From assembly GCA_037576195.1 (NCBI GenBank), contig CM075104.1:20414211-20478210 (forward strand): a stretch of DNA of 64,000 nucleotides, written 5' to 3'. Positions within the stretch are counted from its first letter, which is position 1. Every line of letters begins with the position of its first letter. The notes beneath the pieces are model-generated. The model was not told the DNA's origin and made no database searches. It saw only the letters and a program-made list of their open reading frames with translations. A program made the position numbers and the translations under genes. Shown here in pieces: positions 20,724-62,142 of the stretch. Source of the stretch: Phytoseiulus persimilis (Eukaryota; Arthropoda; Arachnida; Mesostigmata; Phytoseiidae).

Positions 20724-20963
20724 ATGATGATCCTTCAGTCACAGTTAACCGAGAAGGTTGAGCAGTTGAGGCTGGGCAAGGAAAGCAAGACAGATGTTGT
20801 TCTTGCCAACGAAGAGTTGGACGTGTTGAAAGTTCTTCAACAGCTGCTGCCGATCCAGAACGACAGTCAGCAGAAAATGACGTCCCTGGAGATTCTTCAG
20901 TGCGCTATCGACTACATCGCGGATCTGACGAACATCTACGAAGAAACGGAAGGGTTCTGCTGA
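20724..20963 (+). CDS. Micro-HLH protein without basic region, Id/emc-like (copy 1)
   Basis: Single-exon 79-residue protein. Helix 1 is about residues 31-42 (ELDVLKVLQQLL), the loop 43-53 (starting with Pro), and helix 2 53-72 (TSLEILQCAIDYIADL), matching the HLH consensus E-I-L-Q-x-A/V-I-D-Y-I-x-D-L of Id/extramacrochaetae proteins. The segment before helix 1 is acidic (ANEE), so no DNA-binding basic region exists. In the known family such proteins dimerise with E-proteins (Daughterless) and keep proneural bHLH factors off DNA; that role is inferred here. An N-terminal motif KVEQLRL (11-17) recurs in copies 2 and 3. Unlike Id/emc it ends seven residues after helix 2 and has no intron in the coding region. 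Two ATGs (20724, 20727) are adjacent. AATAAA follows at 21201. Confidence 0.85.
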   Translation: MMILQSQLTEKVEQLRLGKESKTDVVLANEELDVLKVLQQLLPIQNDSQQKMTSLEILQCAIDYIADLTNIYEETEGFC

Positions 20964-21200
20964 GTGCTCACTGTGAAGTTCCCTTCGCTCACATGGCTGT
21001 CTTGCGAAGAACAAGCGGCTCCCTCTTCGGGACGTCCTCGCTGATCGAAACGCCACAGACTTGCTGCACATACGACAACGATACTCATAGGAAACTGTTA
21101 AAGACGTCGAACGCAGAGTTCGAGCATAAACTTTTGTGTTAATGACCCATCCTCGCTTATGGCATGTTCTTGTTTTAAGTTTGTGCAATACTGCAATATG

Positions 21201-21206
21201 AATAAA
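21201..21206 (+). terminator. Polyadenylation signal of HLH copy 1
   Basis: AATAAA 238 bases after the stop codon at 20963, followed by a TG-rich stretch. Confidence 0.7.
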
Positions 21207-22594
21207 TATGTAATTGAAAACATGATCATCCGAGTCCACTGCTCCAGGTAAAATAACTTATCGCATGAGATCTCGGAACGAGTGACACATGTTGATTACT
21301 AAATTGTTTACACAAGCTATCTCATCCATTGACGACTGGCCTCTGGAGAGGACGGTTGAGCATGCAGCTGGTGCTGAACTATCTGCCGTCACCCCCGCTT
21401 CTCGAGCACGAATCTTTTGCGTGATCGACAGTATCGTAGGAGCATGAAGCGAAAGATGCTCCGCTTTTCACGTTTCTCTATTGCTTTCTCACCCTTCGCG
21501 AAGCATTGCTCCATGCCATAACACTGATTGTGAGATGCACGTGATTCGTCCCCCCATATTCGAGTTTCTCCATACTCGGAGCTCGGGCACGGAGATTGAG
21601 AAGTCCGATGGAAGCTTTCGTTCTTTGATTTGCGCATTGCAGCGGTTGAATGTTATCGAAGGTGCTGATCATGGAGGGTCTCGATTTGAACCGAAGAACT
21701 TCGAAGGCAACGAGAGTGACTGGATGAGGTTGTTTCGAGGAACACGATCTGCGGACGGTGTTCTGTCTCAAATATATAAGTCACTCGTCACCATCGTTTT
21801 CGATATGATGAGAGAGACTGGCCGGCTGGTTTGCTGACTAGATTGTCGGTTGTTCGACTGGGTGTTCGAACGCCCACCTTTGCATCGTGATGGCCGATGA
21901 AACAATAGAATCAATTTATTTGTTTTGTTCCATCATGATCCATGACATCGTCACCTGCCCATTCTTTTTCTTCCTCTTGGTATTGCGCATGTTCTGCGGT
22001 CAGTCTCCTCCGGCAATGCTTCCTGTTCTCCGTAATTGCTCCTGTTGAGATCGTTCCGATAGCGGGGTCGATCATAAATCGTCAACCGAGCGGCGCACTT
22101 CTCGGGACCGGGCTCCGAATGGACTCGAAACCGGTGTTCATCGCACATCATCGTCTATCGAGCGACAGCGCATCAACAGAACCGAGCTCATGTCAGTGGT
22201 AGCGAAACCCCGATATGAATCAGGGTTTCCATCCCTCACGCTCAGGGAGGCCGGATCGATTCAGAAATTCCTCAGAACTCGACCTGTCTTCGACTCGAGG
22301 GTGGCGTGGAACGTGTGGATCCTTTTCCGAAAATACTTTTCGTCCATGTTCCAGACATCGCGTACGGGGGCTTCCGAAGCTCGTTGTTACACTTGCCCGG
22401 CACAAACCGTGTCGTGATTTGATCCTCGGCTTTATGCATCTTCGAAATGGCGCTCGCTACAAAGAAGACTAGTCTGCATCCAGGAGATGAAAGAGGACAG
22501 GTGGCTCTGCGCGCACGACGCACCGACAGCTGGACAGCCAGCTGCTGACTGCCCGACTGCTTGCCTGACTGACTGCCCAGCTTACCACCACCAG

Positions 22595-22660
22595 CAGGCA
22601 GGCAGAGAGACGGACGGATGGACAGGCAGGCGACCAGGCGGGCAGGCAGGCAAACAAGAA
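22595..22660. repeat. GCAG/GGCA low-complexity tract
   Basis: Imperfect tetranucleotide repeats of the AGGC/ACGG type. The reverse strand gives Leu-Pro-Ala-Cys-rich shadow frames, which are not genes. Confidence 0.7.
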
Positions 22661-24287
22661 AACAGAGAGGCACATGTTTTCACCGACAAAGCTACCGGCA
22701 TTGCTGGTTCGGCTGCCGCGGCAAACCTTTCCTTCCTCAGAACGCTGCCGGCGGTAATGTCGTCGTCGTCAACGATTTCCAACGAAATTAGCTCATTCAG
22801 TATGCCGCGGCATCGATGACCTAGGTCTCGCATACGACGGGTCCGGCAACGCGGTTCGCGCGAGCTGACCCCCACGACCGCGGATCCGGCTCCGCGATTC
22901 TGGAAAGCATTGACGGGATGCAGCGTCGCTGCCGGTGCTCACAGCAGCGAAATGCGGTGCACGCTCTACGGCGATGCTTTCGGCGAACAGCTGCCAATCC
23001 AGCATACCCACAAGTTCAAATCGTGAAGCAATCCCAAATTTAGATATCCATAGAATCATCTCAATCATCCGGCGATCGTCCACCCGGATCGGAGTTCATT
23101 GATTGTGTCCAATTACTCCTCCGACGCTGTCAACTGTTCCCGACGGTATCGAACTTGGAATCTTCGAATCCTTCCGGCGTTCTGTGGAGAATCCATTTCG
23201 AAACACAGACTGATACTCACATTCGCGAGCTCGACAGGGACGGAAGATGGCCGGCGATGTCCCCGCGAACCTCCGGGGGGGAGGGGGGGGAGCAAGTGCT
23301 GGAAGTGGGCAACTGCTCGCTCGAGCAAAACAACTAGAAGTTCTCGAGTGGCGGCTGTGAACTTCTCGCTGTGATTTCTCAGCTAGATGAATAAGAAGGA
23401 CACGACAGACGTCAGCCGAAGTTCGCCAACGTCCGCGGCTGAAGGGTTCGTTGATTTCATTACTAACCAGAAGCAAGTAATCCAGTTGGCTTCCGGCGGA
23501 GGTGGGCAGCTGCGGACCGATGCAAGCGATTCCTCAACCGAACGTCTGGTGGCCCTCTGTGTGTTCGCCATAAGGGGACCTGAAAGGGCCCAGATGGTCA
23601 CCGTCTCCGCGCGAGCGTCGTCTTCAGTCGAAGTTTCGTCTCACTTGCACTTTATTGTTCCCGAGCTTGCTCTGTCGATGACGGCGGCGGCGGCGGCTGC
23701 AGAGGTTACATGATCGGCAGCTTCCCGGAGAAAGCTTCCCATCCGCGGAAGCTCGTCGAGCTCTACCGCTGAATCTGGAAGACAAGCCACTCGGAGCTCT
23801 GCTCACAAATGACAGACATGGAAAAGGAGTTGAAGAGTCCGATTCCCATGCAGACCCAGCTGGCTGTTGAATTCCCAGGCCACCAACTGAATCCCAGTGC
23901 ACCCGGAGGCGGCTATTGTTCCTGGTCACTTGGCCATGTCTACGGCGTTCGTCTCCAGGTGTAGCGCACCTGAGCCGCCGTTTGCTTCTGTTACAATTAG
24001 GAGCAGAAGGGCGAACTGACAGAGTCAGTGACTGACGGCAGAAACTCAAAAACCGAGCAATGCGCTACTGAACCAAGAGAAACAAAGGAAGGAAGTGAGC
24101 CTTCGTCGCCGTTTTCTTCTGACCACTCGCTGGACAAAGGTTCAGGAGTGGCACTGCGGTCGCAGCTGTCGAGCCAGCGTCATGGTGGCTTCGACTCGCG
24201 ACGCTTTGTTGGGCTCGATCTGCAGCCAGCGCTCTATGCATCAAAACTCTCGCAAAAACGAGTCTTTGCGGGGCGGCTATCAACTCC

Positions 24288-25552
24288 TCAAGTCTGTCCA
24301 TTGAGCTTACATTCCCAAACTTTCTTCATTTTCAATCTCTGGCGAGCTTGGCCGGGACTGCACAGCCCGCTGAAGTTTTTGACCAGTTTTCGTGACATCG
24401 ATTTGTGACACTTTTTATTTTTTTGCTCTTCTGATATGCGGCTGGGATCTCTCTTCGCGTTTTGTATGAGCTTCGGTGTCGGTCGCCTGGTTGAAAAGAA
24501 AAGTTCCCAAGCCGGCGGAGCTGGACAGGTGTATCCAGAAGAAAATTCTATGCCGGTGCCACGGACTGGTAGCGTTACATTACGTTGATCTTCCCAACGC
24601 GTAGCGGCTGAGAACGGATGGACAAGTCCGGATGCCAAACGCCCGATTCTCATCATGCACAAGGCGAAAAGAGCGGCTCAACTTCTGTTGTGCCACTTCC
24701 CGCGCCGACAAGTTCCGACGAGACCGGAACTCATACCTTGCAGAATCGAAAACACAGGTTTCGGTCTGTAAACAGAGCTTCGCACGCCGAGCTGATACGG
24801 TTTTGTTTCTGGAGTGACTTCTATGGACCGAAAGTTCGTCACGTTAGAGGCGGAATAGATCACATCTTTGATCACAAGTATGATGAGGACTGTTCCAACC
24901 GAGCTCTCATCTGCTCGGAGACTCGGGAAAGCGCGTTGCTCGCATCCTCAAAATGAGATTCGGCTCATGTTCTCTCCAACCGAATTAGTAGTTACACACG
25001 GAACGAGACGAATATTATCGGGAGGTCAAATTTTCCGAAAGCCGTCACATCAATCACAATCAGAACCGTTCGAAGGGCTCTTCGATTCTGATCTCACTTA
25101 GTTCACCTGGCTTCAGATGAGGCTGATAGCTAACTCGTTTAGCTCCGAGCGATGATAGCCGGGCTATTAGATTTTCTGATCAAGAGGGAGATAAAATTTT
25201 AAACAAACCTCGCGGAGTCTTCGTGGATACATGTTCCCGGACGGATGATGGACCGTATTCAAATTTCGCCTCAGAAACCCTTGACCGTAAATCATCGTAA
25301 CTCGGTAACTGAAGAATTACTCGCACATAAGAGTTATCCCCCGAACAGGAGGTTCGTGATTTCTTATACAACATCATATACGGAACTATACCGAGAAGAG
25401 CGTTATTTTTGCGTGACCGAAACTCGGCAGTTCTGGATCCCGGAATGTACACTTCTCGCGCACAGCGAATCGAGGGGGCAAAATCAGAACTCGCAACGTC
25501 ATCGTCAGCAACCCACTCCAAGTTGCGGCTGTGAGCTCGCGTCGTCTCGTTT
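24288..25552 (-). CDS. Probable single-pass membrane protein, 5' end not found
   Basis: Three exons join in phase: 25552-25209, 24946-24737 and 24607-24288 (TGA). Donors are GTTTGT and GTATGA; acceptors are TTTTGAG and GTTCTCAG. The first exon carries an NET sequon, an acidic patch (ADDDVASSD), Cys residues and a strand-rich stretch (YVRVILQLPSYDDL). Exon 2 contains a hydrophobic segment (VGTVLIILVIKDVIY) and NVT. Exon 3 has another NVT, an aromatic CPAPPAWELFF stretch and a strongly basic tail (RLKMKKVWECK). The hydrophobic run is short for a membrane span, so a buried strand is the alternative. A minus AATAAA occurs inside the last exon (near 24412). Family not recognised; upstream exons must lie beyond 25552 because the first base completes a split codon. 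Confidence 0.45.
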
Positions 25553-28500
25553 CTAGACGGTGGAATGCAGGTAGATATTTTCACTCCGATCGCTTAGTCA
25601 AGTTTTTGATGGACTACCTGAGTGAGTACTCAAGGGTGAGCGGACGCTTCGCGGTGACCGGTTACCTGAGGAGGGAGAGTGGCTGACTGACCGTCGACTC
25701 GAGAGAGTGACCTGTTATTGGGATTTAGACAAATTTATTCGAAGAGAAATCGAACACCAACTGTTGTTGCTTAGCTGATTGGCTAACGATTGTTGTCTGG
25801 CTTGCTGATGCATATTTCTATGCCTGATCGGAGATAACCGCGTAGAAAGTTTCTATTCTAGCTCAATCTCTAGCCATGACGAGATTTTTTGGTTCCACGA
25901 CGCGGTGCGCAGGCGCGACCTTTACATGCGCTCAGATCGGTAAGGCCCCCCGTGTTGTATGTACATTGAAACACACTCCGTCAGTCCGTCACAGACACCT
26001 GTTCACCTACTTGTATGCACGGACGATGTAGGTACGAGAATGCCAAGTGGATTTTACTTTGAACAGAAGAGGCCAACAGAACGCGCATCGATATTTTTGG
26101 TTAACAAGTCACTCGTCTAATGTATGTACGAGTCAAGTTCTCTGCCTGAGTCTCATCGAGCGTCTAGTTTCACCCGGGCTGACGACTTCTTCCATTTGGG
26201 TTTCCCTTGTCAGATTTCATCGGAAGACCACTCTTCCTCACTTTATGTCTGGAGTCAATGAAATGCAGAAGTCGACGTAGAGAGAGCAGGCGATCGATGC
26301 GAGGATCCATATCGTCGAGTCGGTCAGACACAGTTCAGAGACATCGCTTTCTCCAAGAGCCTGAGTTTCAACGATCCGGGAATGAAGAGTCTCGATACAG
26401 ATGAGTCAAGGGGGCTCAGGATCGCTCCATTCGAGATCCGGTCACATTTCGTCAGCAAGGAATAAGTGGTATGAGATCCACATGATGGTTCCACCGAGCA
26501 TTCCATCGCTCCGACTCCTCGACTTGTATACACACACACACGATGGTCATCGATCACACGTGCGTCTCGAGATTCCAATAGACGCAATCAGTTTGTTATG
26601 TTTGAACCTCCATCCCTCCTCCTCTTCGTTCCCCCTCAAGTTCCCAGGCCGTTTGAGACATGAGTTGAGAACTGAGTTTGATTATTGTTACCGACGTCGA
26701 GTAGCCACATAAGAACGGCCACATCTGTGGAACACCAGATTCCGCTCGAGCTTGAAACGGGCTGGAAGCAAGCCGCACGGCTAATTTTCTCTCATAACGC
26801 TGCTGTTGCTTTCCCCAATACAGATTACATTTGGTGGACATGTGTGATCCAGATGGACATCTATATACGCACGCTGGCACTCAAGCGGGCGGGCGGGCAG
26901 GCAGCCACGCAAACGCTCACATTTCTTTCGCTCATCACCATGTCAAACATTTGTGCTCATGAGCTTAAGCCTATCAACTACCCCACTAGCCGACGAAGCA
27001 GTCGGTTAGCACTCATTCTATCTCCGGTCGAGCGACAGGCTTGCTAGGTGATACCGCTGTCCGAGTGAGGCGTAACCGAACGAGCGTGACCGCTGTCGTC
27101 AACTCCGTTGTCCAATCCACACGAATCTCTCAGAATCGAAGCGGCCATTCAAGCAACATTTACTCGAGCAGCCCACATCGTTAATCATCCATTATCATAT
27201 CTGTTATTTTTGACTGTTCAACCTCGCAGCTTATCTCGGGCGGCAAACGAGTCTTGAAGAGAACGCACACACTTAGCGGGCTGTCGATTTGATTATGAGG
27301 GTTCGATCAAAGTTATGGTGGAAGCCGTAGCTTCGAGAAGGAAGATCAGGGAAAACCGATCGTGAATAAACTCCGAAGGTATCGGTTTCGAACTTTTTCG
27401 AGTCTGGTACAGAGGCCCGATATGGAAACGCACATCGAAGGTTGAGGACAAAACGTGGCGAGCAGCTCTGTTGGAAGAACTCCCGCCGAAATTTCGCTGA
27501 CCAACGCGTCTCGGAATTCCCGCACCGAAATTCACCGTACTCATGATGACAGAAAACCAGAAAAATGGATCCCGCTTATCACTTCGACTTCTGCCGGAGC
27601 TTTTCTCTTCGTCTGCGGCCACCCAAAAGTGCTCATCCGCCCCTTCATTGCTAAAACTTTCCACGCTGCGCATGGGAACCACACGTTGGCTCCTCGTAAG
27701 ATCCTTTGTTGGCAGTTCTTGAGGATCGATTCTGAAGAAGCGCCCGACCTGTCGCGGCTTCGATCCAAACTCCGAAATCAGCAACTACTCCTTCGGCGCC
27801 GTGTTTCAAGGAACGCCCAAGTACTACAGACAGGAAACGTCTAATTGAGCTCAGTCAGATATCCGATTTCACCTGAGCGGAGCCGTCTCAGGTGTGATAA
27901 TCACAGATCTGCGAGTGACTCGGCGCCGCCAAACGCTCCACCCACATTTCGATTCGAGTTTTTCTCGCCGTTGTTTTTCCTCTTCTCAGTTGTAGTTCGC
28001 CATCGCGGTTATCTTCGATGAAGCCTCAAGAACAAAACCTCCGATTCCCCGAAATCTGCTAGTCTTTACGGTCGGAGGCGAGGACTTGAAGATAGTCTGA
28101 GTCGTTGAAACGCGACGATGTTCTGAAGACTTTTGACGCTTTTTAGTGGGGACCAAACACTTCGCGTGTCTGTAGGCCGCCGTTGTTCTCGACTCCCTGC
28201 TCCTTCGAGGCTCGCACTGATGCCAGTCTCAAGAATGCGTGGGCCTTCCTCTTCCGAAGAAGGTCACCTCGATGAGCGTCAGACAAACGCTGTAAATTCG
28301 TCTGATCTGATACTTACTGCGGGCCACAAAGCTTGGAGATAGCATCGACTTAGGCGGAGAAGACGATGCGAACACGAAAAAAAGAAGCGTTACTGGAACG
28401 ACTGTGAGTTCGTCACAACTCTCATAAAGCCAATAGTTCCTCCCACAGTTTGTGAATAGAGTAGCGAATGATGCCAACCGCGAGCGTTCTGATTGGGAAT

Positions 28501-29010
28501 AATTGGAGCGAATTGGTTTCAGATCTATTAGGACAAAATAATTCCCATGTCGACGCCTGGCTGAGAACGGGCGTCACAATGATCCGACGACAAGTGAGAC
28601 CGTTGATTGCGAGCGGCGGGAGAGTCCCCCGTCGGCTCAGAATGGGGGACAGACGACACACGCCGAAAGACCAAAGATCATCTGAATCATCCGCTCAGTC
28701 CCTCTGAGTGAGTTCTGATCGAGTTAGAGGATCAAAACTCATCGGGCTTTCGGACTCACACGCGTTGGAACACGATTCTGCTCATATTTAGAACCTAGTC
28801 ATGTGCCAGAAGTCTCCGATGCTTCAGTGCCATCTGGTACAAGGGGATAAATCCAGAAATGCGTATATGAACAGGCCAGACCGCAGTAGAATATGCAATC
28901 GACACGAAGCCAGTGACCAAAAACCAGACGAAATTTCAAAGGAAGACACACCAGAACGGTACCTGTGAGCGGGTGTCTGGTGTTGTGGCAACGTTGGCCA
29001 GACTCACTCT
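25553..29010. other. Unexplained; candidate coding patches
   Basis: The minus strand has a 163-codon open frame at 27293-27784 (no stop, mixed composition, no supported splice sites). The plus strand near 28340-28700 has two adjacent coding-like frames offset by one base, with a GTGAGT donor near 28405 and an acceptor near 28448, suggestive of a broken gene. A GCGG/GCAG microsatellite lies at about 26885-26910. I cannot turn any of this into a gene model. Confidence 0.3.
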
Positions 29011-29411
29011 TCAAGCGTCCTTTGTAGCATCCTTGTGATCCTGCCGATTTTTTTCTGGTTGGCCTTCCTCTGAGTGTATGGGAGGAATGTCATTCGCTTC
29101 AGCGTCCCCAGTATCGTAGAGTAGCCTGGCGGCTCTGGCATTTTTCTGTTGAGTAGCGTGATCGCCAAGAACCTTCTGCGCCGTCTCGTGGCAGGAAAGT
29201 TAATTCTGAGTCAGCGGCGGCTCAATCCAGTGGACATGGGATGGCGATTCTCCCCAGAGTCCTCCGGCGAGATGCCGCCCCCCCCCCCGGCATGGTATCC
29301 CGTAATCTTGTTATGCATTCGAATCAGTGATTCAGTTCAGTCGCTCTCCCGGAGGAGCTCACCCATCGACACAAAGACAGTGCCCCGGGTGTCGAGAAAC
29401 GCCGTCGAGCT
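29011..29411 (-). CDS. Two candidate 3' exons of an unknown gene
   Basis: The exon at 29411-29363 starts at a strong acceptor (GCCTTTCTAG), reads SSTAFLDTRGTVFVSM and ends at ATGG|GTGAGC. The terminal exon at 29184-29011 starts after CCACGAG, encodes 57 residues and stops with TGA. Its product is hydrophilic, beginning TAQKVLGDHATQQKNARAAR and ending in an acidic/basic tail (EKNRQDHKDATKDA). The phases of these two exons do not match directly, so another exon must sit between (about 29190-29360, where a Gly-rich frame crosses an 11-base poly-C run) or one call is wrong. Function unknown. Confidence 0.35.
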
Positions 29412-32400
29412 CTAGAAAGGCAACCTCCAGTCGCTTCCATCAAAGAGATCTTGGTCACTCGCTTGGCGAGAGTTTAGTCGGAATGAAACTAGACGCGGGA
29501 AGCTCGTTAAAAACTGGCAGGGATCGTTTCTGTTTGGTTCGTGCATGTCCGCTCTCTTGCATCAACGGAGCGGGGCATCGATTTCTCGAAATCATTGGGA
29601 CAGCGTTCGACATGTTTCAACGTCGCCAGGCCGAAAAGCAAGTCGGTGGAGCCACGAGAAGCGAGTAGAAATGAATAGAGCGAAGGAGACGAGGTATGAT
29701 CAGGGAAGAGGATCAAAAAGTGGAAGACAACTCAGCTGTCTGAACAAACAGCAGAGCATCTGTTTTCGGACGGCCGGAGGGAGTCAGGCAGGCGGGCGCT
29801 CAGCCAGGCAACGAGATAGCAAGACAAAGATATCTGTCCATAAGTTTATATCAGCGAGTGAACAGCAAGGATGGGAACATACGAGTCTCATCTGCTCGTC
29901 TTGGAGTCTGTGGTTTGTCATTGCTCACTGCGGCGCGGCGCCGCTCGCGCTACGATTAGAGAGCGTTTTTTCCTTTACGGTTTCACTCGCAATACGTTTC
30001 AACGTCGGAAACTGGCCAAGCCGAGCGTTTCGAGCACAAAATGAGAAATCCCGACCATACGGACATTCTCAACACCATCGCCGTACCGATGTAGCTGGGC
30101 TCAACTCACGGTATATTTTTGATCATAGTGAACCGAGGGAGGCTCACAACCAGTCCAACTTCCATCCTGAACGGTGCTCTCAGCGACGGCTCTCCGTTTT
30201 TGAGACGGTTGCAAGTGACATCACAGGAAAAAAAACGGGGGCGATTAAGGGCCTGCTGGCGGTGATTCTCCTCCTGGGCGGAATATAATCAATTCTGGGG
30301 TTTAGATGAAAAGCTCGTCTATTAACATGCGCAGGGAGCCAGCAATGCCGAACCAGGATGTGGAGAACCACTGCGATTCTGGTGAACTTCAGTTGCTCGA
30401 TAGCTGACTGCTTCAGTGGATGGCAGATCACGATCGGCTGCACTTAGAGGAATGGGAAAAAATCGGCTAAAGCTCGGCGAGTTTATTAATGGCCAGCTTT
30501 CTCTCGTCACTGAAAGAAAACGTGATTAAGCTTCCCCGTTGGAAGCCCTCGCCCCGAAGACGTCTACTTGTAACATCTAACGGAGACCCCTGAGCGCCTC
30601 ACCGCACGTGACACGAAGCCAATTCACAAGGAACAAGTACCACGGGCGGCGGCGAACGAGCCAACCGAGAATTACTCAGCTCAATGGATTCACTCTGTGA
30701 CTTGTCGACGAGCCTCACGATCATATTCTCTCGACCGTCGGCTCGCCGGAGCGTTCGCAACTTTTTCCAGCATGGATAGCGATGCGACAAATGTTGCTTA
30801 TTTTTGAGCTGACCACCCCTCGGACGCACAAAGTGTTCCTCATTAGTCCCCCTGATTCGGTTCCCCGGAATTCGAATGCGCCGGGAATTCTAACATGATT
30901 GTTTGTTTAGCCCTGCTCGGAACCCCTCCAGATTGCCAAATCGTAAAACGTGATCGCTCACAAACTCTTCGGTTCGTTTTCGTCGTCATTCGTTCCAGAT
31001 GGAAAACATGGATGGAATGCCCATGTGTTTTCGTGTCCCGAGAGCGAGCTGTATGGCGGTGTCCATGTGCCGATTGGCATGCTTCGTTTCGGGTCTCTGG
31101 AAGACCCAACACCGACCCGAAAGCTAGATTCGACCGCTTCCCGAGCGGCTTGCCTGCCCCGGGGCTCCCAGATGGTCGCGTCTCAACATGTTCTCACCGT
31201 GTTTCTTAGTCGGCCCATTTTGTCAGCGTCGCTGCAAACCAAGTGGCGCAGCGGCGCGCTGGATTCATCCATCCGTCGGAACAAACACAAGTTCATCGGT
31301 GAGATATCTATCCGAGTTAAGGCCAAGATCACGTGGTTTTATACTCTTCTTCTAAGCTTGATGCCCAAGCACTGTACTGAGCAAGTCTATCGTGAACGCG
31401 ACCTCACAGCTGCGCACTTCAAACGGGCGAGTCGCGAACAGCGCGGGCAGTTGTTCGATTTCACAGGGATCCCACTCACTCTTTTTAGGAGGTTTGTCGA
31501 TCTCGGAGGAATCTTCATGCAGGGGGAGTTGACAGATGTTGCAGCAACTCGTATGGCGCATTGTATTTTCGAAAATATTCGCGACTGTTCTCACAGCAAT
31601 TAAATGAACGAAAGTCAAGCTCGATTCCTGGCGAGAATTCCGTCGACTCTCATAGTGATCCGACGATGCAACCCGATACAACAGGAGCAAGGATCGCTGC
31701 TCCGATCTCGTTATGGAACTTCATCGGGAAGCTTTCGGGTTTTCCACCTTTTGTTTGAGCGACACGGACTCCGATCCAGTTGCTCCGATGTGTTACCCAT
31801 CTGGTGGTTTTTCGCTTTTATTTCGAGCTGATTCCGGGTGATTAATAACTATGTTTGTTAGCTTAGCTGTGAAAAGACGGTGCCATTCCCCTCGCAGTTT
31901 TTGCAGATGACCTCTGTGCTGTCCCGAGATCGGACTTATTCTCAGAATCGGATGGAAGCCAGCGAATTAGTATCAGAATTAGCCGTAACACAGGTGGGCT
32001 TCAACTCGTTGTTGTCGCTGGTCTCTCTCTCACTCTCGTCGCTGCAGTCAGCCAGCCAGCCTGTGTGAGCCTGTTTGAATGTGTTTAGGTGAATGACTGG
32101 CGGCTGATTTGCCGACGAGCATCAAGTGGGAATCTCCGCTGGTTAACCTGATGCCGAGCTCGCCTACAGTTTGACTGAATGTGAGTGAATACGGAAGAAA
32201 CAGAGAGCACCAGCACCCCTAACCTGGTTGCAGGTGTGGGCGCAGACAACTGGCGCCATGATTCGGAGGAAGTCCACTCAGATATTTGCTTTGTAGGGCA
32301 GACGAAAAAGATCTCAACATAGAACCTGAAGAGCCGAAAAGTGGCTCTTCTCGTCTCTCGCTCCTGTTCTCGTCGCCTTCATCGTTGTTGCTGTCATCGT

Positions 32401-49944: not shown

Positions 49945-50044
49945 AAGTGGCTCTTCAACTTGGAAGTGCGAGCCTCAACTCCGTGTAATCGCCCTGGCGG
50001 GTAGTTGCACCGCATAGCCACCGGTCAGAAGAAAGACTTCTTGA

Positions 50045-50206: not shown

Positions 50207-50209
50207 GTC

Positions 50210-50215
50210 AATAAA
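50210..50215 (+). terminator. Polyadenylation signal of HLH copy 4
   Basis: AATAAA 266 bases after the stop of copy 4 and directly after the relic's stop codon. Confidence 0.6.
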
Positions 50216-50433
50216 AATCGTCTGAGCTTCGGAAACAGGAACAGCCTCCGTTTTCATTGAGGATCGAGAGATTCCGCCCTTAGAGTTACAGATTCATAGA
50301 GTGTGTCTTGACGTGGGAGATGCCTAGGGAAGGGCAAATGGAACGTATCGGACTGTCGACTCTGGTGTCAATTGAATGCGATTCGCAGCCGAAACACAAC
50401 GTCAACACTCGACCAGAGTGCGGAGAACCGAAC

Positions 50434-50970: not shown

Positions 50971-53900
50971 CTCACGGTTCAAACTCCACCGCGGAACAGA
51001 ACACGACTTTGGAGGCATCGCCCTGGAGTCGAAAGGGGTGAACTTCGAAGGTTCTCGCTGGACCGCGAGTCCAAAAGAAGAGATTGATCGGGCAACCGAC
51101 AAGAGGAAACAGCCGACCGCGTTATGAGAACAGTTCATTGTCAACCTGCTCGGAAATTTCCGTACATTACCGCTATCTGCGAGCACGTTGGCTCCGTCAT
51201 GGAGTCAGTGAATATGTTTCTGAGCCGGGGGAAGAGGAACAAGAAACCCGAGTTCGGCTCCACGCGCTGTTCGGCGACTCTGAGGAAAGCTCCTCACGGA
51301 GAACGCGGCGGTCGGTCTCGTCGTCATCCAACCATCTATACGGGCTTCGACTAGTTTCCGGGGGAAAGAGAACGGGATAATATGAGAAACTGCGCTTCAG
51401 TCCGAATCTCGCATACCTGAAGTTCTGGGTTTTTCTGAAAACGTCCCACCACTCCAGTCCTACCCATTTCTTCGCGAGGAACTCGCTGCGGTCACACCTC
51501 TTGCGATCCTCGTTCGGTCCGTTACATGATTCGATGGCGCACAGCTCACCGTCGAATCCGCCGAATCCATCGGCAGCGAATCAGGATACCAGACTCCGCT
51601 GCGGAGGTCTCCTCCAATCGTCCGTCCTGATTGCGTTTGTGTTGAAAACGGCGGGTCTCCCTCGCAACACTTGATTCTTTGCTCACCGCTGTTCCGTTTC
51701 TCCCAAGCCGACACACGAACCCTCCCGATCTACGTTGGTGAACGCTAGTGTGGTGCTCCCCGACTTTGCCATATTTCCAGTAAAAAAGCGATCAAAACAG
51801 CCCCGATATGCCCCAAATATATTCTCAGAACACGAGGCGTATTCAAGACTCTGAGATCGCAGCTAGTGAGTTGAATGGATTCATATCCCAAGAACGAGGT
51901 TCCGAGCTGGAAACTGAAGTGAGGCAATCAACAAGTCTCGCGGGTATACCCGGTCGAATCAGTCGAATGGTCGATGTTGCCACGGAAAACTTATTGAAGT
52001 GAGTGGGATAGACCTTCTCGGTATGAGTTCCCTCGGTTTCTCAGTCATGGGGAGGAAATAGATCTTGAGCGACAATGAGGAATCCAATCTTCAGCCATCA
52101 CCAATATAGGGCTCGAGTGAACGACATCGCCCACGGAACGGGCCGCGGGAAATTCACCGATCAAATTTTTCTGAAAGATGTCGAGGATCATGCTCACATT
52201 ATATCCTCAAGATCAGGAATCGAATCCAATCCGCTCGTGCTCGGAAGAGATCGCTTGTGCTCGCATCGAAATCTGGTATCGATACTTCAGCCGACCTTGA
52301 TAAGGCCGTGGTTTGAACATCATGTAATGCAATAGCTGAATAATGCTGCCCTCATCCCAATTTGCATACGCCGAAAAACTGCTTGTGTATCGTAGTTGAA
52401 TCGGTGCACGCCCATGAAGAGCAGTTTCATTCGATCGAGGGGCTGAAAGAGTTGAGAGGGGAATGTTGGCGCAAACTTGAGTTCTCATCAATTCAAGCGC
52501 TTATGAATCTCGCTCCACGCCGATTCTCCTCAGAGACGTTTCATTGCACGGATTGAGGACGACTGGATTCGTGACATTTACTTGCGGTCCAACTTGGTGG
52601 TATTCTTGCTCCCACAGTGATTTCTTGAACCGATTCCCAGGTCGAGACTAACATTCCATAACAATAGTCGTAATTTCATAGCAATCGATTATTCCAACCT
52701 CAAATATCTCAACTTCCGATTATTTCGACTTTCCTCCGCATCGATTAGCCAATATAATCCAGGTTGTACTACATATACCGAAATAGAGCTCATTTTCCCC
52801 TGACTCAAAAGCTCTTGTCCCTCGAAGGTTAGCCAAACTCCATGGAGTCCGCCGTTTCTGGGTGTCTCCATTGATACCAAATAATTGGTGTCCACCACTC
52901 CATGAAGGCTGGCTTCCTATCAGTGAGTTTTCCCATAAGAGTCGGACTCCGCCGGTCGCCAGGGTGCAACTTGCCCGTCGAAAATTGCCATTCGTGTTGA
53001 TTTCCAAACAGACTCGTTTCGCATAACTTGCGGGACCAGCTAGACGGTATTGCCAGCAAGATTAGCTGACGACTTCGCGAAACTAGTTCATAGGCGCGTG
53101 GAACTGTCTTGATGATCGCGCGTCTTTCCTGAAAAACGCCAATTCTATCTGATGACTGGAGTGAGAGCAGCAGCGGCGAAAAATAGTCTCCCGAAGAACC
53201 GCTATTCCGTTCCATGTCACCGAGTGACCCGTTTCATCGATAGAACACCACACAGAGCCGTGACTGACCTCCACCCGTAACGGACGCGCGAAACGTTCGC
53301 AATTCTGAGTCGGAAATCTTCGATACAAAGGCCATCTACGGCCACGGTCAGGATTCGTTTTCTAGGTTCGAATCTAATCGCTCAGAGTTTGGTGTCACGA
53401 CTCAGGGTGCTTTTGTACCACCCCAGAGACTTCACCCTGAGTGGAAGTAGTCGTGGGACATCATCATGTATGTACATACAGACAAGCATGCACTCCTGGG
53501 TGCATTCATACACTTTCCATACATAGTTTCAGAGTCAGCCACACAGACACATGCGATACCATGACTCAATGCCTGACCAAGTGGTCGTTCGCTCTGAGCA
53601 GGCACAGGTGTTTCGGCAAGGCAGGTGTGGACGACCAGGACAAACCCGGTGGGAACTGTTGGGACACGACTCTCAAGAACATATCTTAACTCCATCTGCT
53701 TGCCGCCAGAAGGCATCGGTCGCGAAAAATCGACCGACCGGCCGACCGACCAGCTATCCATTCGTTCGCTTCAAAAACACTGGAATGCTGCTAGGCGCAG
53801 ACTAACTACGAAGACTAGAAGATTTCGGAGCGACCCCACAACCTCCGCCTGAATTGCGCAACCGAGCCATCTGACACTCCTGACTTTCGATGCGCCAAAC

Positions 53901-54282
53901 TGAATGCATTGACTCTCGTCTCGGGGGCCGATTCGAACTGGGAACTGGAGCTAGCAACGTGGAGCTCGATTGAGCACCGTGTTCGAGATGCTAGAGACGC
54001 CACGAGTGTCAGTTGTCGATCGAGTTTACTGCCCTATCAGCTAACAGGGTTTTCAGGTCGGAGACTGCCTTGGGTGTCGCTGCTCGGAGAGCCTTCTTCC
54101 CACCCTTGACGCTTAACTCCGGCAGCTAACGTTTATTCTTCTCAGGCTTCTGAACATCTTCACATGCATCGAGCGAGTAGCCATCCATCCATCCATCTGT
54201 TCGGCTTTCTCTCCGCTTCTCCTTCCGAATGTCTGCCGTTGCTTCTTTCTCGCTACTCGCACCTGCACCACAGAAGAGCAGA

Positions 54283-55070
54283 TATAAAACTCAGCTGCAA
54301 CTTCCGACTTCGAACTCCAAGACGAGATAGGCCAGCTTATCCAGCTCCTTCAGCTGTCCGTCGTAATGTGAATGCATCAGTCAGCTCGTTCATGTCGCTA
54401 ATAGTTTGTCGGAGCCGCGGCTCCGGAACCGGACTCCAAGCGAACGCTCGTGTCCCTCCCCGATTCCAGTCCGTGTTTTGCACTCTGGCGATGCGGAAAC
54501 CCCGATGGAAATGTTCAGCGGCCCGCTCCTCGAAAGAGAATCGAAATCATGCAGACGGACTCTCTCGAAGAATCGACAGCGCAATGCGCAGTCGTGCTCC
54601 TGGCGTACATCATCAGGCGACAGTGCAGCCATGAAGTTATTGTTGGTGCTCTTTAGCTGCTGCAGAGCACCCATCGAAGCGAGTGAATTGAGCCGACCAG
54701 CCACAGACCGTCAGTCAGGCTACTAGTTCGTCACAGAGCTGCAGCCATCTGGATGAGCTGCCGCGATCGAAAGCAGACCAGGAACAACCAGATGGGCCCT
54801 GGCTCAAGTTCTGTACTTCGGAGCTGCAGCACAACCGAGCAGCCAACCTGGTTTCGATGGCGGAAGCGGTGTGAGGCGATCTCCCAGATGGAGGACAGGG
54901 AACCGGAAGGACACCGGAAGCAGCACTGTACTCCTTCGTTGGCTCCCACACACATCTAACTGTACTCACAGCCACACAAGGACGCGAGCTGCCAACTCAA
55001 GGCTGTAAAATAATTGAACAACTTAGCTTATCGCTCAATAATCCTTCCTCTGTGATTCTGGAGCAATAAA
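54283..55070 (+). other. TATA-to-polyA transcription unit with no recognised protein
   Basis: TATAAAA (54283-54289) is flanked by CACCTG (54260-54265) and CAGCTG (54292-54297) E-boxes. The first AATAAA downstream is at 55065. The spacing resembles HLH copy 3 (TATA to AATAAA about 0.7-0.8 kb) and it has the same orientation. No frame shows the HLH pattern. The nearest is a 35-codon frame from 54550 containing AQCAV and AYI, which I do not accept as a helix 2. Possibly a decayed family member or a non-coding transcript. Confidence 0.25.
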
Positions 55071-55469
55071 ATCATCAGACCGTCGAGCGTGGATCGCTTT
55101 CTGTGAGAATCCGCCGCCGCGAAGGCTCTCGTGTCGTGACCCGACTCGCGGGATTCGGTGCTGCCCGAACAGTTGGAAGTTCTAGAAGGGAGGTGCGAAA
55201 GTGACATGTGCAACAGGAATGCCCGGACTGAGGTTTCTCGATGTTTATTTGAGTTTAGGTCTGTCCGTTGAAATTCCCAGGACGTTGTAGAGGGACACCT
55301 GCTCCAGATGAGCGGCCAGCTGACGTTCGTCTGCTTCTCCTAGCTGAGAGTTTCGAGCGAACACAGGTACCCACAGAAAGACGTCCGTACAACAAAGAAC
55401 ATACACATGTAGACAGATGTTGAACGGTCTTATTAATAGAATGGACTGGCGACGAAATGAGCCGAAGTT

Positions 55470-55916
55470 TCACACGACGTACTGCAGTTCGAACGGAAGG
55501 AGAATGCGGTTGGAGGTAGCAGTCGGATGTGTGGGCCATCGTGGACTCTTCTTCCAGCCTGTCGGTTCGATATCGTCGATCAGCTTGACGCTCTTGGAGG
55601 GCTGGAATCGATTTCTATCCCGAATCACACTTCCGTCGAATTCGAGCGGAGTATCGCCCGCGGTTGCAGAGACAGTCGTATACAGTCTCAGAGCGATGTC
55701 TCTGATTGGGAATGAAAAATTCCAATGTCTAGGTAGACTGTCGAACGACAGATATACCTCGAGCATGAGTTGCTGATCCCTTTTCTCAGATTCTCCCGAT
55801 GCCGCGTTCGGAACAAGAGAGAACACAATTTGAGAATGTTGAATGCTTGGCTCGTGAGGTGTGTTGCAAGAACGGGCTCCACTCTCGCACGACCCAGGTG
55901 CATCGAGATGAAATAT
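55470..55916 (-). CDS. Long open exon of an unknown gene
   Basis: A 148-codon open stretch ends at TGA 55470-55472. The 3' two-thirds is convincingly protein-like: LMLEVYLSFDSLPRHWNF, IALRLYTTVSA, KLIDDIEPTGWKKSPRW and RILLPFELQYVV, alternating strands around a conserved-looking Gly-Trp. The strand/Gly-Trp pattern faintly recalls TGF-beta-family propeptides, but no cysteine-rich mature domain follows and GTGTGA at the end could be a donor rather than a stop. The upstream splice site is uncertain (candidate acceptors near 55880). Treat as one exon of unknown function. Confidence 0.35.
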   Translation of the reverse strand: MFHLDAPGSCESGARSCNTPHEPSIQHSQIVFSLVPNAASGESEKRDQQLMLEVYLSFDSLPRHWNFSFPIRDIALRLYTTVSATAGDTPLEFDGSVIRDRNRFQPSKSVKLIDDIEPTGWKKSPRWPTHPTATSNRILLPFELQYVV

Positions 55917-56102
55917 TCAGCAGCAGAAACAGACGGGGATCCTGTGTGGGAGACAGAATTTGGCCTTGGTAACCACATTGTTATAGAGAAGATTGTAAAC
56001 CCAGGAGTGTGAGGCTTGCTTCGTTTCCGATGCTCCGCATGCCGCGATCAGCTGTAGTCAGAGCGGAAGCAACCCTCGATCAGTTAGTCAATCGGACGCG
56101 AG

Positions 56103-56219
56103 ATGATTTCGATCTCCGAAATGGATTCCTTGGTCTTGCCCGAACACGTTCAGCACATCGACCTCATGTGGCGAAATAGCGCAGAACTGCTGATATCGTT
56201 GATTATTGTGGTTGATTGA
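56103..56219 (+). pseudogene. Possible second decayed HLH copy
   Basis: A 38-codon frame beginning MISISEMDSLVLPEH and ending NSAELLISLIIVVD. The last part matches the 50.19 kb relic over 18 bases with two differences. The Met-Ile start, Leu-Pro and AELL spacing echo copies 4 and 5. The leader contains CAGTTAGT, as does that of copy 2 (33938-33945). Helix 1 is missing and the match is short, so chance is a real alternative. Confidence 0.25.
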
Positions 56220-57732
56220 AGATCATTCGCGAATTAGAAGAAGAGTGGCACCAAGAGCTGTTTGGTAGGCGAAGCAAGACCACCGCGAGCGAGAGGGTCG
56301 CTGCTGGCGTCAATGATGTGCCTACAGAATCGAGCCGAGTCAAAGGTTGGTCTGCCTCAATGAGCAGCAGCAGTACTACGAGCACATCAGCAGCAACGGG
56401 TCTTCTTCTTTTTCCACCGTCGCTCCAGTGTAAACCATATGTTCATTCTACTGCGGGGAAGCGAGCGACAGACCTAGCAACTCAAAGCTGCGCACAACCC
56501 TTGGTCGGACGCTGGCTCACTTTGGTCTCATCTGTTCGGAAGTCCCTTAAGGCCGCGGCAGCATCAGCAGCTGTGCAGGCGGCAGGCAGGCACACCAACA
56601 CCGGACAGAAATAGTCCGGTCCCCACAGAGAGCAGAGTAGGGGACCGAGCGATCGACAGAGAATCCGGACCAGACGTAGCATTCATGTAACGGCCATCGA
56701 CCGAACCATCAGAGTGATGTCTGTTAAACGCCGATGCTATCTCCGTCTCATGTCCCGATAAATGAAAGCATTCGTGCCTTCGATTCGAGCTTGACAGGCT
56801 GTGGGTTGCCAAGCCCACTGCCGGAGGACAAGACGATAGGGTCCGAGAAACTTCGATCCGAGTCGAAACGTCTACGCACAATCTCAAGATGACACGCTTC
56901 GCGCAGAGTTCGGCTCGGCTCACGTCTAGACCAACCAGTTTTTGATTTGCGGAGATGACACACTCTCGAGATGGATGTCTTGCGAACATCGAGCAACATA
57001 GGTACGCAGCTCAGAAGGATCGCGTTTGTCCGTCTCGATGGAGCTTTCCTCCGATGCAAAGATGGTTCTCATACTTCAACATGTTCTATATAGTATGCGT
57101 ATGAGCATAAAAGTTTCCACTGGGCAAAAGTGTTTCGAGCAGTGAGCCCGCGCTAAGTAGTCGCAGCCGCGGACGTTGCTCAAGGTGTTGGCATTCAGCG
57201 ATGCGTGAAGCTTCTTCTCCTTCGCCTCCGTTGCCTCCACGTCGGTCTCTCCTTACGCTCGTTGCACTCGCCCTGCTCCTGGCCGAGTCAAGCTGTCGCT
57301 GCCCGCCGCCCCTGGCGACGATCCCCCCGTAGAACTGTAGCAGCCGCCGCCTAATATGAGCAACGTTCCTTACCACCAACACGGCGGCCGCCTGCCGCCA
57401 TCAGCCGCGGCTGCCGTGGCAGTAGCAAATCGAATTTAATGTTTCTGGATGGATGGCCAGGCGACTTGCAACTTGCTGAGGGGAACGAAAACCGCGTCGC
57501 GATGGAATAACTCGAGCTCAGGAACAAGCATCACGACTGTGAGGAATGGCATTGGAGGACAAGAACCGTTTGAACCAACGGCTGCCAAATTAGCGGAGGA
57601 ACAGCTGAGGAGAAGCATTCCCTGCTTGCAGAGATCGTTCTGTTAGGCGTGGGCTGCGGTCCAACAGCCGCTGCATTCGTGCCGACCCAATCTGTGTTCG
57701 AGGTTCCGGAGTTTCGTCGAGGGTCGGGGAGG

Positions 57733-57879
57733 ATGGCGGGGTCTGATCTGACTTACGACGATGTCTATCTGGGGACACAGCTGATGAACTCGAAATCAAA
57801 ACCAGATCGGAAGTTCGCGATCAGCGAGAGTGCGATGCGCCTCGTATACACTCTGAGGGAGCGCGCCCTCGACCAATGG
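57733..57879 (+). CDS. Candidate first exon
   Basis: ATG at 57733 opens 49 codons (MAGSDLTYDDVYLGTQLMNS and on, with VYTLRERALDQW at the end) to a TGG|GTCAGT donor. Composition is protein-like. The next exon is not established. If unspliced, the frame ends eight codons later. Confidence 0.25.
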
Positions 57880-58448
57880 GTCAGTCAACGACCCCGCGAC
57901 CGTTAGAAGGTCTGCTGGATGACCACAAACTACTCAATAATCGAGCTGTGACAGAGGAGACTCAGTTTCGGGGACGCAGTCTATACCTGCCTCTATCTTC
58001 CGGTTGCTGAACCGATCGTGAGTTCGATCTGCATTTGGATTTGGCCGAAAATCTGGGTCTTGAAAGTTTCGAAATCCCGACTCGATTATAAGTCTCATCA
58101 AAGATTCCCGAGAATGACGATTCGTCTCGTCGTGAACTGAGTGGTGAATTTTCCTGATCATCCTCGTTCGGAAAGCCGCCTCCGTTTCGGATCGCGAATT
58201 CCTTGACCGTTCGATTGAGTGGGAAGTACTGCAGCTCCCGACGAACGGAACGTATCCCAACTCCGCACGACTCGAGGAGAAATCTGGAGGATGCGGTCGT
58301 TCGATCGCAACACTTCATGCCGCCTCATGTTTCTGAGCCGGCTTCCATCCTCGGAGCCTCATTCGAAGTATACCATGCCTAAATAATGATTCGAAATGGA
58401 GGGCTTTGATTGAGATTTCACCCCATTTCTTTTTCTTTTTATTTCCAG

Positions 58449-58585
58449 CTCATGCCTCCAGGGGCGACACACATTTCCATGTGGATGGGAGCTTGAGCGC
58501 TGAGCTCGTGCAGACTATTCGGCTCGTTCTCGGTGCCCTGACTTCGAGAGCGGCTTTTGTCCTCTCCGGCGAAAGCCCGAGATAA
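58449..58585 (+). CDS. Candidate terminal exon behind a strong 3' splice site
   Basis: An excellent polypyrimidine tract and acceptor (TTTCTTTTTATTTCCAG, ending 58448) precedes a frame reading HASRGDTHFHVDGSLSAELV, then TIRLVLGALTSRAAFVL, with TAA at 58583-58585. The opposite strand is also open, so strand is not certain. Confidence 0.25.
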
Positions 58586-61500
58586 TCGATCCGAGGTAGA
58601 GCTCTCCTTCCTGGCTTCCGTCGCCCCTCGAGACTACACGGTATCAAACCCGAGTCCGAAGCGCTAGTCGATCGCAGTAGCGCAGTAAATCCAGAGCAGA
58701 TGGAAGTTTCGCGTATCCATGTGCGAAGTCGTTGTCTCCACAGCATTTTCGATCTAGATCATCCGGTTTGCGCCATGGCGGAACTTCCCGACGTCGATCG
58801 TGGACGTCAAGTACATGCGGCAGAAGGGACGTTCCGGTACCTTGCGGGCAAGCTTCAGCACGCCTGTGGCGGGTTCTTGCCCCTTGGAGCCATCACGGAG
58901 CCGAGTCAGATCCCGAGCTCTCGAACGTTGCTGAAAATTGAGAAGGTGCTCTTTCGGGAAAACTAACCGCAGCGAAGCCTGGCTCGATTCAGTGAGCTCT
59001 GCACTACTGTATCCGCCTTGCTTTCCGCATGCTCCAGAAGCGATCCGATCAGAAATGATTTCAGGTGTCACAGAATTGAACACGCTGCTTTGAGATCGCC
59101 TCGGAGCAGAGACCACATTTCCTCGGGATTTGGAGGATTTGTCCAGAACCAAGTTTCGGAATCAGGATGTCCGTTCGAAGACCAAGAGACTCTGATATTC
59201 GAAGAGTTTCTGGCAATGCACAGAGCTTCTCGGTAGAGCACCCTCAATGATCAAACGCAACACACTACGTGAGATTCTCCGATATTCAGGTAATCGCGTT
59301 CCTTACGGATCGGGGATGACGTATCGAGCTGGCGACTGAGGTTTCGGGAGCATCGGAGGTCTTGTTGCGGCGAATTTCAGTGGAGGTCCGGGGTAGAACA
59401 ATGAAGCGGATGGTGTTTCGATACCGTCCGGGCTTCCATCGGAATATAAGTACAAACATACACCCTGAGAAATTATTCAATAAAACAAATGAATCACTGC
59501 ATTTCAAATACGTGCTTCACGAAAAGGAAGAGTCAGACAGATTTCATTGAGACGTGTGCGGTTTATCGTAGTTATCGGGAGCACCGTTCTGTGGAGCGAG
59601 AGTCAAGGAACTCGTCGGGAATCATTGAGAAGGGATTTGAGGGTGACGCATGGTGTGAAATCAGTGGTGTGATCCGGCCTCGATCGAAAGGCTTCTCTAG
59701 TCCGTGTTGCAGGAATCGGAAGCGGTTTCGCCTCCGATACTGGATGCAGAAACCCATGACGCGATGGCTTGCACCGCCGACAAAAACTGCGAAATACGGG
59801 CAACAGTCTCGGTGCGGCAGCAGCGCATGCGGCAAACTGGGTCGCAAGCTCTCAGGCCGACTCTCACGCTCTGTATCCCCCTTCCCGGGACGGCGACGCA
59901 GCGATACGCAAATCTGCACTCGGATACAGACCGACCTAGTCCCGGAGCTCGTCGATAGTCGAACCAAACCACCCTCCAACGCAATGGTTCCTGAGGTTGT
60001 TTCGCGGCTCACAGCGTGCCGTGCATAGTTGAAGCAAGTTCCAGACGGTTAGCACTGAGTCAAGCGGTACGATTCCGCCATCCGCAATCGGCCCCTGCAT
60101 CCGAATTCTTCATGGCGTAGCTTCTTGAAGCCCTCCATTGTCTTGAAGTTTGGAGAACTGATAGTTTACGAATCGAAGGGTTTCTGTGCTGTGTCAGCTC
60201 ATGTAATTCTGATCATAATTACTCGCGTGGTCATACTCATTTGTTAAATTGCTTGAGACATATGGTCGATTTTGGAGTTTACTGACATTAGACGTTTTGA
60301 GAACTGTCCACAGCGCATCGTGTATGTCGAGCACCACCAGCTGGCTGTATGTTCAGCTCTAATAAACTAATAGTGGAAGCTGATCAGAAAGACCACTGAG
60401 TCATGACAACAATGGTCGCACGCGGTCACTACCCACCGGTCTGGCTGGCTGCATGTCCGTCTCTGAACCGACAGAGCGGCCGGCCAGCCGGCCACCCGAC
60501 CAGCCAGCAGACCTACCAACTGGAGACCAGGTGCTAAAGAGGGCTTCCCTCATCCAAACCACATGTATGACAAAACCTGCGTTCTCATGATTAAAACGAT
60601 CGCTCCCCAAATCGCAATCAAGTCAAGTACCAACGACCCATTCAGCTGAAGATCAGTCTCAGAACTGGGAGCTTCAGGAGCAATCGAAAAAACAGGACCT
60701 GGAGGAGTGAGGAGACCGGCAGAAAACAAAAAAGAAAACCAGCGACTCCTAATGACATGAAAAGCGTGAGAAATTATCAGATGTTTGTCATCTGGCGTTC
60801 CTTCCTATCGTGGACGGCAGCCTGCTCCAAGATTTATTGAGGGTAGCGAAAAAACGAGGAACGTTCTGCTTCAGGTTCGACAACCCTTCGTCGACCGTCT
60901 GCATTGTACCTTTGCGCGAACGTATACGAGCCGGTCCGGACATAAACTCGCGCTTGGTGGCTGGTCCTTCAGTTCACAGGTCCATGCCTCCTCATTTAAC
61001 TGCCTTCGGTCTTCTGCTCTTTTTTCAGGCAATTTAATCAACATCTGCTTTCGCTGATTCCAGCTGTCCTTTGGCAACAACAACTGTTGTTGTCGGCGGT
61101 GTTTACCATGCCTGCTGCTGCTCCATGGAGGTTTGTTTTGCTTGCCCGTCAGCTAGCCAGCCTGTCGGCCTGGCGGTCGCTCGGCGAAGGCTCGCTACCG
61201 TTTTTGGTCTCCTCGCCACGTTTTCCTTTCGATCCGTCGTAGCTTCCCGAGCGAGCTCCTGACCAAGAACGCTCACCAACTGGACCCTGGTTGCCATATG
61301 TAGCCCCTTCTGTCGTTGCTCATACGGTCGTTGGCGCCGAGCGCACCACCGCTGCCGTCGCCATTGGTAAGAGCTGTGTTTCTGTGGAGAACTTCTGTAT
61401 CCAATTTCGGTATCGATGCCTCGGTTCCCTCTATCTCCCCTAAAGGGGCGAAACAGCCACAGCGAGCAGTCATTCAGAGGTTCGGTGCCAGCCCCCATCT

Positions 61501-61920
61501 GGCGTTGCATTCATTGACAACTACTCACGGAAACGGCGGAGCGGCACTCACGAAGCCCGACGGAGCCGGGGCGGAGCAGCCGCGGCTTGATCATGTCCGC
61601 GTTAGTTCATTGTCGATGTCTCCTCTCCCCGCATCCCAATCCAATTCATCGCTGGGGTAGTTTGCTAAGTGGAGATCGTAATCAACGCGGCAATTGTCAC
61701 ACCGATGTTTGATAATCGCGGTAGTGGCGGCGGCGGCGGCATCACCGACGGGCGGCGAGCCACGTGCAGAGAACCAGCCCTCGCCACAAAGTGCTGCTGG
61801 GAGAGAAAGGAGGGAAGCACCTTGGCCACTGCTATGGTCCTCCTGTCGGCACAAGGCTTGTACCGATCTTGCCTCTCGCTTCCCACTAGTCGTTACAGTC
61901 TTTCGTTGTTGTTGGTCGTG

Positions 61921-62142
61921 ATGATTCTACAGAGAAACCCCGAACTGTTTCCCACAATCATCATGGACAAAGACCTGATAGAAGACAACGAAGTGTTGAA
62001 CCTTCTAGAGCGGTTGCAGGGCTTGCTACCGAAGAAGCGTCCCAACCTGACCAACTTGGAAGTGCTGCAAAGTGCCATAGACTACATCCAAGACTTGAGT
62101 TTGCTCCTGGAGAGCCGGCGGCCCGAGCAGACCCTAGTGTGA
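61921..62142 (+). CDS. Micro-HLH protein without basic region, Id/emc-like (copy 5)
   Basis: A 73-residue protein. The frame is open upstream, but the ATG at 61921 is chosen because MILQRNPE matches MILEKSFQ of copy 4. Helix 1 (about 23-36, NEVLNLLERLQGLL) follows an acidic segment (MDKDLIEDNE). The loop PKKRPNLTN is the closest in the array to the Pro/basic loop of Id/emc. Helix 2 (46-63, LEVLQSAIDYIQDLSLLL) matches the family consensus almost fully. Ten residues follow, the longest tail of the five. No basic region. Codon use is A/T-richer than copy 3. No TATA box is visible; an ATG at 61834 would add a hydrophobic leader and is judged unlikely. AATAAA at 62594. Confidence 0.87.
   Translation: MILQRNPELFPTIIMDKDLIEDNEVLNLLERLQGLLPKKRPNLTNLEVLQSAIDYIQDLSLLLESRRPEQTLV

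Follow-up and report, generated by a model that had tools for sequence, protein, structure and literature searches.

Introduction

The class V helix-loop-helix (HLH) proteins Id1-4 and Emc have an HLH domain and no basic region. In Drosophila, where emc is described as the only Id gene (PMC9010114), Emc is reported to form inactive heterodimers with Daughterless (Da) and with proneural basic HLH (bHLH) proteins, and to be stabilised, apparently, by Da (PMC5915177). This analysis concerns a set of five neighbouring genes for putative HLH-only proteins (the array) in a 64,000-nucleotide stretch of the genome of Phytoseiulus persimilis (assembly GCA_037576195.1, contig CM075104.1, positions 20,414,211 to 20,478,210 of the forward strand). 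The whole stretch is referred to as the window, and positions are counted from its first letter. The predicted array proteins share with Id1-4 and Emc an HLH domain without a basic region and, in copies 1, 3 and 5, a helix 2 resembling EILQ-x-x-IDYI-x-DL. They differ from them in low identity, diverged loops and very short tails, and in being encoded by five neighbouring genes of 69-79 residues instead of one emc gene.

The members of the Drosophila E(spl) complex are bHLH-Orange repressors with a C-terminal WRPW motif. The array resembles this complex as a cluster of small genes whose DNA contains E-boxes and, as a proposal only, in opposing proneural bHLH genes. It differs from it in that its proteins lack a basic region, are all too short for an Orange domain, and end in WRPW in none of the five sequences. 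Because a survey of four chelicerate genomes reported that no E(spl)-C genes were found (PMC4575448), the analogy has some point, without being proof. With achaete-scute (AS-C) bHLH proteins the array shares a similar helix 2, and one such protein scores level with ID1 on the array profile; the array proteins differ in lacking the basic region, and no basic-plus-HLH domain was found in them. The atypical HLH proteins of the plant ILI/PRE group are likewise small, multi-copy and HLH-only, and they titrate bHLH factors, an activity that is the plants'. They belong to another kingdom, and the Pfam model bHLH_ILI was matched by only one of 16 aligned array members (E 0.082). Among the matches listed in our literature search no publication described an array of HLH-only genes from a mite or chelicerate, and no wider claim is made.

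Five uninterrupted open reading frames

The five plus-strand open reading frames (ORFs) of the original prediction, starting at 20724, 34016, 45563, 49735 and 61921, were all located at these coordinates and are uninterrupted. Neighbouring copies lie 3.9-13.1 kb apart, and the support for each copy is as follows:

20724..20963, plus strand: copy 1, HLH-only ORF of 79 residues (Pfam HLH 26.6 bits; relatives P0003 and P0004)
34016..34252, plus strand: copy 2, HLH-like ORF of 78 residues (92.7 bits to the relatives' profile; relative P0002)
45563..45793, plus strand: copy 3, HLH-only ORF of 76 residues (91.7 bits to the relatives' profile; relatives P0001, P0007, P0008 and P0010)
49735..49944, plus strand: copy 4, HLH-only ORF of 69 residues (Pfam HLH 17.4 bits; five relatives, the most found for any copy; modelled helices)
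61921..62142, plus strand: copy 5, HLH-only ORF of 73 residues (Pfam HLH 23.9 bits; match to an Id consensus; relative P0006)

Since the open frames match their relatives end to end, each gene probably consists of a single exon. The start of copy 5 is less sure because two in-frame ATGs lie upstream of it (61705 and 61834); its relative P0006 is listed with MILQ as its start. The five copies, of which copy 2 is the most divergent, share in their alignment a start of the form M-[IV]-[LYC]-[QKE]; in copies 1 and 2 it is the second M that opens this motif. This N-terminal element lies outside the HLH domain, and in the relatives of copy 4 it is accompanied by QESFE. Seven alignment columns are invariant, one being a start M and the other six falling in the HLH, where helix 1 ends and within helix 2 (L42, L55, I62, Y64, I65 and L68 in copy 1 numbering).

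HLH domain, basic region and tail

When searched singly against the Pfam HLH model, copies 1 and 5 exceeded the cut-off of 20.7 bits, copies 4 (17.4 bits) and 3 (13.0 bits) fell below it, and copy 2 gave no match. At E <= 1 an HLH match was obtained for 14 of the 16 aligned members (five array copies and 11 relatives). An independent profile was built from 13 relatives only, with the array copies excluded; it scored the five ORFs at 61-93 bits and the next ORF of the window at 8.1 bits, against a best score of 8.6 bits in 30 Markov-resampled windows. The HLH domains that had been claimed were confirmed in this way, two of five by the Pfam cut-off and copy 2 through the relatives' profile only, and on these profile matches we consider that an HLH dimerisation domain is present in the predicted proteins. 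A candidate sixth copy at 50045-50203 on the plus strand (8.1 bits) lay inside the shuffle range and was rejected.

Structure models were made for copies 1 and 4. The model of copy 4 predicts helices at residues 27-39 and 47-68 in an HLH-like arrangement, and its fold matches many HLH classes (USF, MITF, MAX, CLOCK and ID). When the array profile was compared with solved structures ID-1 was the best family (26.5 bits), with ASCL1 at 22.7 bits; its sequence matches favour ID, ASCL1 and MyoD over other HLH classes, and ID-1 was also among the PDB matches of copy 5.

The basic motif ER-x-R/K was found in none of the five copies, and across the 15 residues that precede helix 1 K/R never exceed D/E. 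An acidic segment had been proposed for every copy; it is clear in copies 2, 4 and 5, while copies 1 (three K/R and three D/E) and 3 (two and two) are balanced. Judged by these residues, a DNA-contacting basic region is absent from the predicted array proteins. They had also been described as ending 3-10 residues after helix 2, which is corrected here to a tail of 7-14 residues past Y-I-x-x-L, predicted as mostly helical in the models of copies 1 and 4.

Relatives in the protein collection

A profile of the five copies retrieved 11 proteins out of 127 candidates from the protein collection. With a 16-member profile 13 proteins were retrieved out of 1711 candidates, 12 of them belonging to the family; the remaining match, P0014 (E 3.2), was rejected as not of the array family, and P0006, found by the five-member profile, was missing from this second list. 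Overall there are 13 relatives, at least one for each copy and of nearly equal length to the copies. Copies 1-4 are 92-96% identical to their nearest relative, and copy 5 is 64% identical to its own: copy 1 is matched by P0003 and P0004 (95 and 92%), copy 2 by P0002 (95%), copy 3 by P0001 (96%) and by P0007, P0008 and P0010 (75, 74 and 67%), copy 4 by five proteins (93, 72, 70, 66 and 65%) and copy 5 by P0006 alone. The core K-T-D-S-K-L-D-I-I-E is invariant in all six copy-4 sequences, and a protein search with the copy-4 alignment returned nothing beyond the five relatives already known. Upstream of MILQ, P0012 and P0013 carry mutually dissimilar extensions, a pattern that fits untranslated sequence read as protein. 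Because of their divergence the relatives presumably come from other species.

A single locus and the HLH genes of the genome

Each copy was searched against the whole genome (181 Mb in 127 contigs; only the best candidates of each search were scored). No sixth paralogue was found, and the other matches were weak, being bHLH genes or chance. The proposed expansion is borne out as one found at a single locus, with relatives elsewhere, and by the sequence comparisons the array is a genuine and conserved set of HLH-only genes located together.

A search for a canonical Id gene was made with an Id consensus, which scores 39-57 bits on the solved ID1, ID2 and ID3. On the genome it gave nine matches, eight to ordinary bHLH genes (best 25.6 bits) and one to copy 5 (22.8 bits, 43% identity), the only one of the nine without a basic region; the other four copies were unmatched. 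The conserved HLH sequence of the Id type was accordingly not found in the array (22.8 bits for copy 5 against 39-57 bits on ID1-3).

The Pfam HLH model gave 62 matches on the genome. Thirty (L007-L036) and a further 12 (in L050-L061) were translated, L055 having no readable domain; the rest comprised two array copies, two Daughterless-like genes and 16 matches left untranslated. None of the translated domains was Id-like. By profile positions each of the 16 untranslated matches reaches the end of the basic region or adjoins a match that does, and none is a complete HLH starting past the basic region. Because neither the consensus search nor the HLH domains that were read gave an Id, a canonical Id is likely absent from this genome, with the reservation that the assembly may be incomplete. 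A Da bHLH stretch used as query found two loci (130 and 125 bits, 86 and 82% identity), indicating that conserved HLH genes are detectable by a query of this kind:

L075 (G000:C1:7846863): Daughterless-like locus, found by the Da-stretch search
L076 (G000:C2:19142209): Daughterless-like locus, found by the Da-stretch search

Drosophila has one Daughterless gene. Five further bHLH domains (L016, L017, L018, L020 and L021) we take to be achaete-scute-like. The same number of AS-C-like genes is given for the mite M. occidentalis (PMC7738191).

Sequences around and between the genes

An AATAAA follows every copy, each identified by sequence match:

21201..21206, plus strand: AATAAA, 238 bp past the copy 1 stop
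34569..34574, plus strand: AATAAA, 317 bp past the copy 2 stop
46120..46125, plus strand: AATAAA, 327 bp past the copy 3 stop
50210..50215, plus strand: AATAAA, 266 bp past the copy 4 stop
62594..62599, plus strand: AATAAA, 452 bp past the copy 5 stop

The chance of finding the hexamer behind all five stops is about 8e-6, given a plus-strand density of 0.22/kb and a reach of 460 bp that was set after seeing the data. It is the only word that stands out among those shared by the 3' regions. Short words common to the upstream regions were only slightly above shuffles, and one possible core promoter was noted:

45426..45431, plus strand: TATAAA, 137 bp before the copy 3 ATG (sequence match)

CACGTG occurs at 45342, 49508 and 61761, which is -221, -227 and -160 relative to copies 3, 4 and 5 (P 0.001); this is a post hoc observation to which we attach little weight.

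The spacers were examined for proneural-type E-boxes and for Su(H) sites against three controls, namely random genome (three regions, 30 kb), HLH-hit loci (42 loci with HLH or weak matches, one of which, L006, has no HLH gene) and the flanks of the array (30 kb). The locus had already been seen when these tests, and the word ranking given below, were selected, and the P values are uncorrected.

20001..63000, unstranded: spacer DNA moderately rich in the proneural-type E-box RCAGSTG (merged counts against three controls)

Outside the ORFs the 43-kb array holds 44 non-overlapping RCAGSTG sites (1.05/kb), compared with nine in 30 kb of random genome (0.30/kb; P 1.1e-4), 68 in 137 kb of HLH-hit loci (0.50/kb; P 1.2e-4) and 16 in 30 kb of flanks (0.53/kb; P 0.011). 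These are merged counts, which replace raw counts in which palindromic sites were doubled; merging the overlaps weakened the evidence, moving P against the random control from 4.7e-6 to 1.1e-4. Taken alone, neither CAGCTG (P 0.096) nor CAGGTG (P 0.11) significantly exceeds its density in the flanks. In a comparison with the HLH-hit loci that included the ORFs, CAGCTG was the most over-represented of 2080 hexamers, GTGGGA, a Su(H) core, ranked only 263rd, and ACAGGTG ranked 2002nd of 8192 heptamers. We regard the E-box richness of the spacers as suggestive.

The Su(H) pattern YGTGRGAAM occurs in the array at 0.29/kb and in the random, HLH-hit and flank controls at 0.13, 0.12 and 0.17/kb, a weak enrichment (P 0.13, 0.024 and 0.22, respectively). 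By the patterns used, no paired Su(H) site was found in the window and neither a Brd-box nor a K-box in the 1.5 kb downstream of each stop; strings of the GY-box follow copies 2 and 5, but lie past the AATAAA. Control of the array by Notch is weakly supported at best. The regulatory logic likened to that of E(spl) has partial support, with a moderate richness in E-boxes, a weak Su(H) enrichment and, by the patterns used, no paired Su(H) sites, Brd-boxes or K-boxes.

Descent, proposed mechanism and alternatives

For the phylogenetic analysis a tree of 38 HLH cores (48 columns kept) was inferred under the plain LG+G4 model, and the program gave a long-branch warning. The array was represented by 17 sequences (five copies and 12 of the 13 relatives, P0004 being left out), and the others were three Id fragments, five AS-C-like domains and 13 other HLH domains of the genome, the last two groups (18 domains) being a choice among those translated, with putative family labels. 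The array sequences form one clade (support 100/94, starred).

It was originally proposed that the array belongs to the Id/emc family. Its similarity lies far below that of true Ids and, as the Id-type sequence was tested for and not found, we do not file the array as Id; descent from Id is tentatively favoured by the comparisons. In the best tree array and Id together form one side of a branch (93/84, not starred), and ID-1 leads ASCL1 among the solved structures, both of which speak against descent from a bHLH gene of the achaete-scute type whose basic region was lost. Under such an origin the proteins would still be dominant negatives that arrived at the Id trick separately. Array and AS-C as one clade were not rejected (p-AU 0.345; this test, like the array-Id branch, rests on 48 columns with long-branch warnings), the AS-C-like gene on C67 (25.2 bits) and the ID1 fragment (25.8 bits) do equally well against the array profile, and copy 2 carries L-R-C-A-I-x-Y-I as in the helix 2 of AS-C proteins; even so, we hold this origin to be unlikely. 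An explanation of the ORFs as random or decaying frames, for which their small size might speak, is hardly credible, given relatives of near-equal length for all five copies, the invariant core of copy 4, the AATAAA after every copy and the distance between the relatives' profile scores and the best shuffle; on the relatives, and on their profile set against the shuffles, chance ORFs are rejected.

The reading we prefer, with a rough probability of 0.6, is that the array encodes HLH-only dominant negatives which sequester E-proteins, as Emc and Id do, with feedback through E-boxes. The array comprises five genes with uninterrupted frames, and the predicted product of each is a minimal HLH protein without a basic region. 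Each protein would use its HLH to pair with E-proteins of the Daughterless type and perhaps also with proneural bHLH proteins; the two Da-like loci and the five AS-C-like domains are candidate partners. Dimers containing an array protein would be unable to grip an E-box, in the manner of Emc and Id dimers, and bHLH factors would switch the array genes on through the spacer E-boxes, closing a negative feedback. We infer transcription, E-protein binding, inhibition and feedback from sequence, and that the array works like Id is put forward with moderate confidence. Weighing against it are the diverged loops of the array proteins and the fold support from the copy 4 model, which is weak by score. 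Because the structure matches span USF, MITF, MAX, CLOCK and ID, the fold does not name the partner, and the proteins might instead pair with another HLH class or with each other, acting as adaptors or titrators that have nothing to do with E-proteins or proneural genes. This seems unlikely to us, since the sequence matches favour ID, ASCL1 and MyoD, all of them partners of E-proteins, and the spacers hold E-boxes of the E-protein type.

Other features of the window

Ten long ORFs of the window, read as unspliced frames, gave no match to Pfam at E 0.1, and searches of the window for tRNA genes and against Rfam returned nothing. A 203-residue ORF at 11122-11733 on the minus strand has a lysine-rich stretch of helical appearance, then a long tail rich in Pro, Thr and Ala, and no Pfam match; going by its sequence, it is perhaps a real exon.

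Implications

Id/emc proteins set the amount of free E-protein, for which Drosophila uses a single gene. In the mite the five genes may together serve as off-switches for regulators of nerve and cell fate. A further-reaching scenario, in which the lineage lost its canonical Id/emc and replaced it by a five-gene HLH-only array with separate, E-box-fed promoters that stands in for both emc and E(spl), is tentative and somewhat doubtful. A genome in which no canonical Id is detectable, but in which five reduced HLH genes sit at one locus, would suggest that the control point of free E-protein can be rebuilt and subdivided, and the array would offer minimal HLH proteins of natural origin with which to test what loop and tails an Id requires in order to work. 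It would also bear on how chelicerates, reported to be without an E(spl) complex (PMC4575448), restrain their proneural genes.
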